Shown here piece after piece: positions 3,602-7,126 of a DNA stretch of 35,375 bases (the stretch's first letter is position 1; each line of letters opens with the position of its first letter). This DNA is from Verrucomicrobiota bacterium (GTDB taxonomy: Bacteria > Auribacterota > JABMQX01 > JAFGEW01): the NCBI GenBank assembly GCA_016931415.1, contig JAFGEW010000041.1, positions 1 through 35,375 of the forward strand, read 5' to 3'. The translations under genes were made by a program, and so were the position numbers. Under the pieces are notes generated by a model. The model had not been told where the DNA came from and made no database searches. It saw only the letters and a program-made list of their open reading frames with translations.

Positions 3602-4378
3602 ATGGCTAAGAAGACCGCCGCGGAGGCCCCAATGAAGGCCACCAAGCAGCCCACGACCGAGGAGCGCGGGCCTTCGATCGAGGACCGCTTCGCCGAGTTC
3701 TCGGCCCGTTACAAGTGGTACCTTTTCGCCCCGCTGGGGATCCTTATTGTCCTCGTCATCGTGCTGGCCATCAGGTCGGGTCAGACCAACGCCCAGCGCC
3801 GCGCAGCGGCCGCCGCCTTGCGCACCGCCCGGACGGCGGCCGAGTTCGAGTCCGTGACGGCCAAGTACCCGGCCACTTTCGCGGGCCGGTTGGCGCTCGT
3901 GCGGGCCGGCGACCAGCTCTTCCGCGAAGGCAAGTACCCCGAGGCCCGTGCCAAGTACACCGATTTCCTGGCGGCGAAGCCCGACCCCCTGCTCGCCATC
4001 CCCGTGCGCGCAAGCGTGGTTCAGACGTGCATCCGGGAGAAGGACTACACAGCCGCCATCGCCGAGTGCGACCTGCTCGCCGAAGCCGACGGCCGCGATT
4101 TCGCCCTGCACCAGGCGATGTACTTCAAGGGCTACTGCTACGAGCAGCTTGGCCGGCTGGATGACGCCAAGATCTGGTACGAGAAAGCCGCCCCGCGGCC
4201 CCAGAATCAGCTTGGGACCCAGCAGGCGTATTACGCGGCCATGCAACGCCCGTGGTGGCAGCGCAGCACGGAGCGGCTTGGCGAAGTCACACGGCTGATC
4301 GATCTGAACAAGGAAGCGACCGAGAAGCCTGGGCCGGGCGTCTCCCCGGCCGTGAGCACACCACTGACTTCGTCGTGA
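3602..4378 (+). CDS. single-pass membrane protein with periplasmic TPR domain
   Basis: 258 residues: a charged cytoplasmic N-terminus of about 40 residues, one transmembrane helix (WYLFAPLGILIVLVIVLAI, about residues 39-58), then tetratricopeptide-like helical pairs such as GDQLFREGKYPEARAKYTDFL and KGYCYEQLGRLDDAKIWYEKA. The layout resembles YfgM/TPR_21-type proteins, which act as periplasmic chaperone or scaffold partners; homology to YfgM itself is not certain. GGAG nine bases upstream supports ATG 3602. A second in-frame ATG at 3632 is possible. It begins two bases after the PHP stop and is surely co-transcribed. No terminator is visible after it. Confidence 0.75.
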   Translation: MAKKTAAEAPMKATKQPTTEERGPSIEDRFAEFSARYKWYLFAPLGILIVLVIVLAIRSGQTNAQRRAAAAALRTARTAAEFESVTAKYPATFAGRLALVRAGDQLFREGKYPEARAKYTDFLAAKPDPLLAIPVRASVVQTCIREKDYTAAIAECDLLAEADGRDFALHQAMYFKGYCYEQLGRLDDAKIWYEKAAPRPQNQLGTQQAYYAAMQRPWWQRSTERLGEVTRLIDLNKEATEKPGPGVSPAVSTPLTSS

Positions 4379-4470: not shown

Positions 4471-4499
4471 TTGACATTTTGTGCCGAGGACTGATAGCT
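4471..4499 (+). promoter_or_regulatory. candidate promoter upstream of the porin leader
   Basis: A perfect TTGACA at 4471-4476 sits in a locally AT-rich stretch. Seventeen bases downstream is only a weak -10 (ATAGCT, 4494-4499), so the start point is uncertain. If used, the leader to the porin start codon would be about 380 bases long. Confidence 0.35.
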
Positions 4500-4656
4500 A
4501 CACGACCGGTGTAATGTCGCTTTACTGCCGCACCTACGGCCGCTCGACACCGTGGTCAGAAGGGAGGGATGAACACAGGAAAGACCGCGAGGACGGAGCC
4601 GGGGTGACTTCATACGCTGAAGGGAAGATAGTCCATCGTTCTTGTCGCAAGACGTC

Positions 4657-4741
4657 CGCCCCGTCGAGGGGTAGGCGAAGGCTCGCCCGCCCGGGTGGCG
4701 CGGGCGAAAGCTCACGACGTGAGCGGCTCACAGAATGAGCC
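4657..4741 (+). ncRNA. hairpin-rich 5' leader of the porin gene (unassigned structured RNA)
   Basis: Four consecutive hairpins are visible. A: CGCC (4657-4660) with GGCG (4674-4677) around an inner CC/GG pair. B: TCGCCCGC (4683-4690) with GCGGGCGA (4700-4707), a perfect 8-bp stem. C: GCTCAC (4710-4715) with GTGAGC (4719-4724). D: GGCTCA (4725-4730) with TGAGCC (4736-4741). The C and D arms share the GCTCA/TGAGC sequence, so the 5' arm of C could pair with the 3' arm of D, giving mutually exclusive folds. No poly-U follows, so this is not a terminator. I could not match it to a riboswitch class I know (c-di-GMP-I, TPP, cobalamin, glycine, fluoride, guanidine). The rest of the 4379-4778 gap shows only the candidate promoter. 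Confidence 0.45.
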
Positions 4742-4778
4742 TGGAAGAAGGGAGAATACGGCCCTACACGAGACGATC

Positions 4779-4883
4779 ATGATCGACGTAGGGAACTGCC
4801 TTCTCGACGAGAACGGAAACGATATGTTGTTTCGGCGGGCCGTGGCGCGCCACAAGCGCAACGCCCGCCACCAGGAGGGATAG
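4779..4883 (+). CDS. small upstream ORF (34 codons) coupled to the porin gene
   Basis: ATG at 4779 opens a 34-residue frame (MIDVGNCLLDENGNDML, then Arg/His-rich) ending in TAG at 4881-4883. The porin ATG follows with no gap. The AGGAGGG that serves the porin start lies inside the last codons of this frame, so translation of the small ORF would pass over or terminate on the porin ribosome-binding site. That suggests coupling or leader-type control. No strong Shine-Dalgarno precedes the small ORF itself and I recognise no family, so it may be a chance frame. Confidence 0.35.
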   Translation: MIDVGNCLLDENGNDMLFRRAVARHKRNARHQEG

Positions 4884-6143
4884 ATGAGACTGCTTGTGGT
4901 CGTTTGCGCGGCTGCGGTGCTGATCGGGGTGTATACTGATGCCTTTGCGCAGGACGCGGGTGTGATCCCGGGCGTCAGCAACCTGTTCGTCGGCGCCGAG
5001 CTGCGGACCCGGGCCTTCTGGACCGAGAACCTGACGGATCTGGGCAACGACGGCGCGATCGATGCCGAGACCGGCGAGCTGGTCGATGATGACTTCGGAT
5101 ACATCGAGCAGCGCGTCCGGCTTACCACTGAAGCCGAGCTCACCGACGGCGGCGTGTGGGTCAAGCTCACCCTTGAGGGGCTCGGTAACTGGGGCGAGGA
5201 GAATGACGGCTGGGAGACCGGCGTCGTGGAAGCCAAGGTGAGCTTCCACAACATCGGCGACAGCGCCTGGTCCGCCATTGCCGGCCGCCAGTATCTGCAC
5301 TTCGGTCGCGGCCTCCTCATCAGCGCCAACGAGCTCGAGATCGAGCACGACGCGATCCTTGTGACCGGCGAGTACTTGCCCTGGAAGATCGCTCTCGCGG
5401 GGATCAAGACCGTCGAAGGTGGCGCTGACGATCTGAATGTCTACCTCGTTGATGTCAACTGGGCGCCGGCCGAGTCAGTGTTCTCGGGCGGCGGCTACGT
5501 TATCCTGCTCGACGACAGTCGGGACGCCTCCGACCGCGAGCCGATCGTGATCGGCGTGCGCGGCGGGTACGACCCGAGCAACGGGCTGGCTGTGTGGGGC
5601 GAGTTCGCCTATCAGATTGGCGACAACGCCGAACTCGACAAGCAGGCCTGGGTCCTCGACATGGGGGCCACCTACTTGATCGACACGACGTGGAACCCTA
5701 CCGTGCGCGTCAACTACCTGTACGCCACCGGCGATGAGAACGCCGACGACGGCGATGATGACGCCTTCGACCCGTTGTTCAACTACACCCGCTACGGAGA
5801 GGCGTACTCGCCCGAACTGAGCAACATCCAGATCATCAACGCCGGTGTAGCCATCCAGCCGAGCGACCGCACCACGGTCTACCTCGACTGGTACCACTAC
5901 ACCCAGAACGAGGCGGCCGCTATGTCGATGGCCAACCCCCGGATCGTCGATCTCGGGGTGACGGCGCTCACAACAGGAGTCGACGACGAGCTCGGCCAGG
6001 AGCTGGACCTCGGCGTCACGCACAACTACACAGATAAGGTGACTGCTTCGATGATCGTTGCGCTGTTCTTCCCGGGGGACGCCTACGGCGCCGACGCCGA
6101 TGATGCCCTCGAGATTAAGGGCACGATCCTCGTCAGCTTCTGA
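4884..6143 (+). CDS. alginate-export-type outer-membrane beta-barrel porin (AlgE-like)
   Basis: 419 residues with a cleavable signal peptide (MRLLVVVCAAAVLIG to TDAFA, cleavage before QDAG). Alternating amphipathic strands then fill the length and the chain ends in a terminal Phe (TILVSF), as is usual for Bam-assembled barrels. Motifs in the second half fit the alginate-export porin family: VRVNYLYATGDENADDGDDD, FDPLFNYTRYGEAYSPELSN and VYLDWYHYTQ. The loops are very acidic (Asp/Glu-rich), typical for calcium-bound or anion-guiding loops, but the substrate cannot be read from sequence. ATG 4884 follows AGGAGGG with ideal spacing. The gene stands alone, between a structured leader and a strong terminator, so it is probably regulated at leader level. 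Confidence 0.82.
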   Translation: MRLLVVVCAAAVLIGVYTDAFAQDAGVIPGVSNLFVGAELRTRAFWTENLTDLGNDGAIDAETGELVDDDFGYIEQRVRLTTEAELTDGGVWVKLTLEGLGNWGEENDGWETGVVEAKVSFHNIGDSAWSAIAGRQYLHFGRGLLISANELEIEHDAILVTGEYLPWKIALAGIKTVEGGADDLNVYLVDVNWAPAESVFSGGGYVILLDDSRDASDREPIVIGVRGGYDPSNGLAVWGEFAYQIGDNAELDKQAWVLDMGATYLIDTTWNPTVRVNYLYATGDENADDGDDDAFDPLFNYTRYGEAYSPELSNIQIINAGVAIQPSDRTTVYLDWYHYTQNEAAAMSMANPRIVDLGVTALTTGVDDELGQELDLGVTHNYTDKVTASMIVALFFPGDAYGADADDALEIKGTILVSF

Positions 6144-6195
6144 CGCGCCGCACCGGCGCACCCTTCAGGGTGTGTTGGCCCGGGAGAGTAAACAA

Positions 6196-6230
6196 CGCGG
6201 CCCCCTCGACCTGAGGGGGCCGCGTTTCGT
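6196..6230 (+). terminator. intrinsic terminator after the porin gene
   Basis: A perfect 12-bp GC stem (CGCGGCCCCCTC at 6196-6207, GAGGGGGCCGCG at 6213-6224), 5-base loop, followed by TTTCGTTTC. It lies 53 bases after the porin stop. Confidence 0.9.
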
Positions 6231-6332: not shown

Positions 6333-6395
6333 TGTATTTTCTTGTATTTTCCTGCTTGACATTTGCCCTGCCATAGCGTACATTGTGCGATGTCA
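6333..6395 (+). promoter_or_regulatory. promoter and possible operators of the HTH-EIIA gene
   Basis: TTGACA (6356-6361) and TACATT (6379-6384) are spaced by 17 bases, giving a start near 6391. A tandem 10-base direct repeat, TGTATTTTCT then TGTATTTTCC (6333-6352), abuts the -35. An inverted pair, TGACAT (6357-6362) and ATGTCA (6390-6395), brackets the promoter. These repeats are plausible operator or UP-element sites; that role is inference. Confidence 0.65.
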
Positions 6396-6436
6396 GTTGA
6401 CGAGTGGATGCGTCTGCGTCCCCCGATCGAGGGTGC

Positions 6437-7126
6437 ATGTACGATCCTGACGAAATTCTGACGATCAAACAGGTCGCCGACTACCTGAAGGTCAACGAGC
6501 GAGCGGTCTATAAGCTCGCGCAGGAAGGCGGCATTCCGACGGTGAAGATCGCCAATCAGTGGCGGTTTCGCCGCTCCATGATCGACGGATGGCTCGACCT
6601 GCAGATGAGCGGCCATCTGACGACATCCAACGGCAAGACCCCCCCAATCGCCACCGACGGCGACCTGTCTCTCGCCGACGTGCTCCGACCCAAAGCCGTC
6701 GATCTCAACCTTGCCGCCACTACGAAGGTCGATGCGCTCGACAAGGTCAGCGGGCTGCTGTCGGAGCACTACGCCGTGCGCGACCCCATCGGCTTCCGCC
6801 AGGCGGTGCACAACCGCGAGCGGCTCTGTTCGACGGCCATTGTCGAAGGCGTGGCCTTCCCGCACCCGCGCTATAACGGGAGCCGGTTCACGCGCGAGAT
6901 GGCGCTCGCTGTGGGACGCTCCGAGCACGGACTCGACTTCGGGAGCATTGACGGCAAGCCGACGCACCTGATCGTGATGCTGTGCGCGCCCAGCGACGCG
7001 CTTCACCTGAGGATGATCGCAAAGCTCGGCCGGCTCATGGCCGACGCCGAGTTGCGCCGGACGCTGCTGGCGGCACCTGACGCCAAGGCGTTCATCGCGC
7101 TGATCCGCGACCGCGAGTCGCACTAA
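6437..7126 (+). CDS. excisionase-type HTH fused to PTS EIIA (type 2) domain regulator
   Basis: 229 residues in two domains. Residues 6-55 are a MerR/excisionase-type winged helix (ILTIKQVADYLKVNERAVYKL, then VKIANQWRFRRSMIDGWL), the form that binds DNA in helix_turn_helix_17 proteins. Residues about 78-225 are a PtsN/fructose-type EIIA domain with the phosphorylatable His143 in GVAFPHPR. Such fusions occur in Planctomycetes and relatives and probably couple DNA binding to phosphotransfer status. No sugar permease (EIIB/EIIC) is in the window, so a regulatory role is likely. I chose ATG 6437 (GAGGG upstream) because a GTG at 6404 would lie only about 13 bases after the predicted transcript start. 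The zinc-ribbon gene follows on the same strand. Confidence 0.85.
   Translation: MYDPDEILTIKQVADYLKVNERAVYKLAQEGGIPTVKIANQWRFRRSMIDGWLDLQMSGHLTTSNGKTPPIATDGDLSLADVLRPKAVDLNLAATTKVDALDKVSGLLSEHYAVRDPIGFRQAVHNRERLCSTAIVEGVAFPHPRYNGSRFTREMALAVGRSEHGLDFGSIDGKPTHLIVMLCAPSDALHLRMIAKLGRLMADAELRRTLLAAPDAKAFIALIRDRESH

Follow-up and report, generated by a model that had tools for sequence, protein, structure and literature searches.

A covarying hairpin family in the leaders of Alginate_exp porin genes, with a purine-rich loop that may dock ribosomes

An interrupted hairpin with a purine-rich loop lies between promoter-like sequence and an Alginate_exp porin gene in bacteria of several phyla, and that these hairpins form a real family is, in our judgement, practically beyond doubt. 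A probable member precedes the porin gene of contig JAFGEW010000041.1, the 35,375-nt stretch analysed here (hereafter the window), which comes from a 4.06 Mb genome. The leader of this gene would be a divergent member of a new and widespread cis-acting family whose loop docks ribosomes, a chain of claims that, taken whole, we regard as evenly balanced between right and wrong. The conserved part of the leader is this interrupted hairpin, located upstream of the four hairpins singled out in an initial annotation of the same DNA, which had missed it. Members occur in the phylum of the window (Auribacterota, sampled with 44 genomes) as well as in other phyla, many of the genomes compared being incomplete assemblies.

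The locus and the hairpin family

The gene downstream of the leader, already called AlgE-like in the initial annotation, is borne out as such by its match to PF13372 (E 3e-31), and the perfect TTGACA reported before it is indeed present, as the -35 element of a promoter-like sequence (Table 1) that is missing from a consensus promoter scan because its -10 element is weak. At the equivalent place, the leaders of relatives have TTGACA together with TAGTGT or TAGCAT. A TPR gene (3602-4378) lies directly upstream of the porin gene, and the same order is seen in several related porin loci. Just past the porin, a very strong inverted repeat at 6194-6226, with its T run on the minus strand, is probably a terminator and represents the most structured window in the fold scan of the 35 kb; further on, 6356-7126 holds a good sigma-70-like promoter (TTGACA, 17 nt, TACATT) and, behind it, a gene that joins an HTH_17 domain to a PTS EIIA domain.

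Table 1. Features of the porin leader in the window, and reduced genes that follow the element in other genomes
Feature	Position	Strand	Remarks
Promoter-like sequence	4471-4500	+	-35 TTGACA 4471-4476, 18-nt spacer, weak -10 TAGCTA 4495-4500
Conserved interrupted hairpin	4528-4609	+	P0 4531-4535/4602-4606; P1 4537-4546/4594-4601 (interrupted); P2 4551-4557/4583-4589
Purine-rich loop, 25 nt	4558-4582	+	Extended SD-like AGAAGGGAGG 4558-4567; ATG 4569-4571 one nt after
Possible AUAGA-box trace	4628-4631	+	ATAG only, about 22 nt after P0
Multibranch domain	4637-4816	+	Contains the four named hairpins; z -4.95; no counterpart detected in relatives
Four adjacent hairpins	4653-4677, 4683-4707, 4710-4724, 4725-4741	+	Inside the 4637-4816 domain
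34-codon ORF	4779-4883	+	Stop TAG abuts porin ATG; porin RBS inside the ORF end
Porin RBS, AGGAGG	4873-4878	+	From sequence
AlgE-like porin (Alginate_exp, PF13372)	4884-6143	+	419 aa, ends LEIKGTILVSF
Reduced gene	L076:1721-1801	+	26 aa
Reduced gene	L077:1277-1357	-	26 aa
Reduced gene	L078:1257-1337	-	26 aa
Reduced gene	L080:1231-1281	-	16 aa
Reduced gene	L090:1690-2079	+	129 aa

The element was discovered through a short motif pattern whose three matches across the phylum were all porin leaders; an earlier pattern without the variable gap had one match only. Pairwise comparison of the leaders of porin homologues found it to be common to L016, L020, and L021, and covariance models built without the window retrieved 15 further strong members, with one strong copy per genome; the 19 leaders considered below are these three, the 15 found by the models, and that of the window. 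R1, built from the three leaders, found four, all preceding f4 porins, whose E-values ran from 3e-4 to 0.08 over 466 kb and from 1.7e-5 to 0.0043 when less sequence was searched. R2, built from seven, found G014, G021, G006, G036, and G214, the last of which belongs to another phylum (E 3.7e-12 to 3.5e-7 in 240 genomes), and R3, built from twelve, added G240, G328, G250, G156, G294, and G005 (E 9e-12 to 1e-5). Among the weaker model matches, L081-L084, L087, and L092-L096 were inspected and set aside, since most of them fall within coding regions and not one is followed by a porin gene.

PF13372 was found downstream of the element in all nine full-length genes tested, that of the window included, and the remaining full-length downstream genes are porins by similarity to these. 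Four related porins (L017, L018, L019, and L022) have no element detectable in the R1 search; they share an upstream TPR gene, and the leader of L017 has very stable hairpins of its own (z -5.3). Like the leader and riboswitch families of Rfam, the hairpin is structured, occurs once per genome in a 5′ UTR, and goes with a single gene family; it differs from them in that no member matches any Rfam model at gathering score. Rfam gave no match for any member at the element, plasmid and viral searches found nothing, and a limited literature search returned nothing on this element.

The architecture of the family comprises P0 (6 pairs), P1 (9 pairs), a short P2, and a loop mostly of 25-30 nt. In a MAFFT alignment of 12 sequences, 96.1% of the cells are paired and double changes are seen in 10 of the 15 pairs, with a covariation score that none of 500 shuffles reaches; sliding the partner by one column lowers pairing to 38-44%. 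A model-fitted alignment of 18 sequences, which is biased towards this structure, gives 96.3% pairing and double changes in 13 of the 15 pairs. P2, which is outside the counted 15-pair structure and whose covariation was judged by inspection, also varies in a paired manner, as GGC/GCC in most members, GUC/GAC in the window and L016, GAC/GUC in L090, and UGC/GCA in L079 and L085. Early pairing schemes (UCCAUC/GAgUGGA and equivalents) were dropped once the P0/P1/P2 scheme covaried. An AUAGA box follows P0 by about 10 nt in 17 of the 18 relatives and is treated as a frequent, not a defining, feature of the family. The check for covariation in homologous porin leaders that accompanied the initial annotation is thus positive, but for the hairpin at 4528-4609, upstream of those it had named.

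The copy in the window

The window copy is the most divergent of the family. Its position and strand, its loop motif, its P2, and its alignment with L016 nonetheless agree, and on these sequence grounds we consider it very probable that it belongs there. In the 505-base leader, the best match of R3 is full length, at 4529-4607 (9.4 bits, E 0.014); over the genome, the same copy ranks 15th with a non-significant E of about 2.7 in 95 kb, and R1 gives it an E of 8.1 in 35 kb. Because such a score is unremarkable over 95 kb, the model score alone is no proof of membership. Local alignment of the window leader with that of L016, at about 4553-4608, was equalled by none of 200 shuffles, and its alignments with the other leaders were not significant. 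P0, P1, and P2 appear in the minimum free energy fold of the element alone and in that of the whole leader, and P0 and P2 enclose a loop with (G)AARGGRGG that matches the 25-30 nt loop feature of the family. In P1, an internal loop separates four pairs from three, versus nine continuous pairs in the family, and no AUAGA box is found about 10 nt after P0.

Membership has to be weighed against chance resemblance at 4528-4609, in which case the window leader would lie outside the family. Such a coincidence would be compatible with the low model scores (7.6, 6.3, and 9.4 bits), with the sites of equal score elsewhere in the genome, and with the unexceptional fold of the element alone (z -1.17), but it would have to bring together the right place and strand, a full-length match, a significant alignment with L016, the same loop motif, a P2 like that of the nearest relative, and, by the standards of this genome, an exceptional predicted 16S pairing; we hold it to be rather improbable. 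Purine stretches of the GAAGGGA type that resemble the loop motif (repeat D4) are also present at 4618-4630 and 4745-4758, outside the conserved hairpin.

The segment between the hairpin and the porin start

What follows the element differs by lineage, being about 50 nt in L021 and the multibranch domain in the window, and the four named hairpins belong to this lineage-variable segment. They are real, as initially annotated, and unusually stable: the fold of 4632-4820 is more stable than chance (z -4.95, none of 200 shuffles as good), and 4682-4861 ranks among the three most extreme of 470 fold windows across the 35 kb. As a DNA query against 59 genomes, the leader gave no homologue. The broader idea of a structured leader of unrecognised class acting on an outer-membrane protein is supported, but for another part of the leader than the one picked. 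The absence of a recognisable riboswitch class is likewise upheld by Rfam, which at gathering score and at permissive E-values gives only chance matches in the leader (gyrA 16.7 bits, CRISPR-DR9 14.5 bits, minus strand).

Hairpins C and D do share arm sequence (inverted repeat I5), as had been noticed, but the proposed exchange of partners between them is unfavourable, with -16.5 kcal/mol for the separate hairpins and -9.3 for the swapped pairing. That such a swap switches the porin on or off is highly improbable, even in a domain of unusual stability whose arms share sequence, since the swapped form is about 7 kcal/mol worse and no homologue of C and D was found in any relative.

The 34-codon ORF that ends over the porin RBS, also part of the initial annotation, exists, but its length is uninformative because 51% of shuffled leaders contain an ATG ORF of 34 codons or more. 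In codon composition it resembles a gene (+7.8 bits), with a score reached by none of 3000 shuffled leaders and by 5% of off-frame stretches of real genes. Judging from these features, the ORF is possibly translated and coupled to the porin. A search of 59 genomes gave no convincing homologue of it, and coupling as the means of control, as first suggested, would be peculiar to the species of the window.

In the f4 leaders, a terminator-like hairpin followed by a T run is found between the element and the porin; it was called by the scan in L025 (421-446) and is seen by eye in L024, L026, and L027, that of L024, which has a longer loop, not being called by the scan. This suggests premature termination as a control in this group. 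If the element were a riboswitch that senses a ligand, or a regulated attenuator of another kind with its output at the downstream terminator, this would accommodate the f4 leaders as well as the fact that the element is single copy, strictly upstream, and covarying. We nevertheless find this unlikely: in most members, the window included, no terminator separates the element from the porin, the conserved core is a plain rod capped by a purine loop instead of a multi-helix pocket, and no convincing antiterminator pairing was found.

The purine-rich loop and its possible role

In 19 of the 19 leaders, the strongest predicted match to the 16S tail is the loop, with -16.3 to -22.3 kcal/mol when the usual tail is assumed, and the predicted pairing of the genes' own RBS is weaker (-10.4 to -12.9 kcal/mol). 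The duplex predicted for the window loop, again with the usual tail sequence, is the best of its leader (-18.1 kcal/mol), and over 160 kb of strand from the same genome no site reaches -18 kcal/mol. The loops of L020, L089, and L091 contain AGAAAGGAGGUGA, which is perfectly complementary to the usual 16S tail over 13 nt. We would put the chance that the loop binds the 16S tail, as these models predict, at about one half; 16S 3′ ends matching CCUCCUUUCU would support docking.

Start triplets behind the loop motif have no consistent placing, being 1-2 nt away, far, or absent. As ATG, GTG, or TTG is found within 1-2 nt of the motif in many members, initiation at the loop could still take place. 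The loop might then start an upstream ORF, such as the 1-5 codon ORFs of L020 and L024-L027, or the 34-codon ORF, with its gene-like codons and its stop adjoining the porin ATG, might be a leader peptide, translation in either case controlling the porin via coupling. Both variants appear improbable, given that L076, L077, L078, L088, L089, and L090 have no suitable start within 16 nt of the motif, that 1-2 nt leave too little room for normal initiation, that the encoded peptides are not conserved, and that the 34-codon ORF is without convincing homologue.

With start codons absent or badly spaced, the extended SD of the loop would instead capture 30S subunits without a translation start there. 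A docked 30S subunit would protect the 5′ end of the mRNA and/or stand by for the porin start, which lies 130-360 nt further downstream, and the segment after the element would be adapted in each lineage, with the terminator-like hairpin in f4 and the multibranch domain and possibly coupled small ORF in the window. By analogy with STAB-SD, 30S docking that loads or protects the porin mRNA is the most likely function; that stabilising or loading is the main effect is a more tentative proposition, to which we give somewhat less than an even chance.

The STAB-SD of cry3A in Bacillus thuringiensis is a non-initiating SD near the 5′ end of the transcript, where the bound 30S subunit blocks the 5′-3′ exoribonuclease RNase J1 and thereby protects the mRNA (PMC4113751). 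The element shares with it a long SD-like sequence that lies within the 5′ UTR well upstream of the gene, at a non-initiating distance and complementary to the 16S 3′ end (tail assumed), and this likeness is what favours 30S docking for protection or standby. In contrast to STAB-SD, which is described as lying near the 5′ end of its transcript, it is displayed about 35-120 nt into the transcript by a conserved covarying hairpin that holds it in its loop, outside the Firmicutes and before one porin family, and both 30S binding and stabilisation are here predicted by analogy. Ribosome standby sites similarly provide ribosome contact in a structured leader away from the start codon, as is predicted for the element. 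No standby site is known, however, that forms a covarying RNA family conserved in different phyla or that displays in a loop, as is the case here, 10-13 nt complementary to the 16S tail.

A different partner for the loop can also be envisaged, namely an sRNA whose seed is rich in C and U, or a protein that binds RNA, for example CsrA, either of which would repress or stabilise the porin mRNA. Porin mRNAs are common sRNA targets in enterobacteria, and the window loop contains AGGGAUG, which we take to be close to the CsrA motif, in a genome that encodes CsrA. However, CsrA was not found in G001, G004, and G020 (81-95% complete), all of which have the element, and the loop matches the 16S tail over its full length, which exceeds the need of an arbitrary factor; a trans-acting factor at the loop is thus on the unlikely side, although it deserves some weight. 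The CsrA gene of the window's genome (PF02599; G000:C16:54240-54389, L040) has no counterpart detected in the seven relatives searched, and CsrA as the common reader of the element was rejected on its absence in relatives. Post-transcriptional control through the 5′ UTR of abundant outer-membrane proteins is described for ompF/micF, ompC/micC, and ompA/micA (PMC1489923). The hairpin, too, is in the 5′ UTR of an abundant outer-membrane protein. It differs from the sRNA sites of the ompF, ompC, and ompA mRNAs, which overlap or adjoin the start region and have a partner RNA.

Five genomes keep the element while the gene is reduced to an ORF of 16-129 aa that ends in the last strand of the porin; a porin search at E 1e-10 gave no match in these genomes. 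In G014, G021, and G006, from three different genera of a single family, an ORF that has its own RBS and is exactly 26 codons long comes after the element and ends in IEIRGEILVSF or IEIRGDILVSF, i.e., the last porin strand. Strong terminators come after this ORF in G021 and G006, and the contig of G014 ends there. After the element, G036 has an ORF of 16 codons and G005 one of 129 aa, which begins like a signal peptide and has a porin tail of the same type. By group, f7, f13, and f6 genomes have lost the porin body and kept the promoter, the hairpin, and an ORF ending EIRGEILVSF (or close), whose C-terminal codons are under purifying selection in f7. Comparison of the three 26-codon ORFs gave pS of 0.86-1.19 and pN of 0.07-0.12 for the last 12 codons, with weak or no constraint in the first 14; the low pN relative to pS indicates that the peptide tail is under selection though the porin body is gone. 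Together with the porins of L017, L018, L019, and L022, which are without a detectable element, the reduced genes indicate that element and porin body are separable. Hairpin and last strand might even form a two-part module, in which the RNA and a beta-signal peptide take part in an outer-membrane feedback circuit outliving the porin, but this is a speculative and improbable reading.

These results add to the known RNA families a covarying one that is absent from Rfam, occurs in several bacterial phyla, and is tied to one porin family. The retention of the hairpin beside a gene shrunk to its final strand raises the separate question of what the module is for. A long complement of the ribosome tail is displayed in the loop, where a translation start is improbable, and family and complement together offer a testable case in which non-initiating ribosome docking would control abundant outer-membrane proteins outside the Firmicutes.
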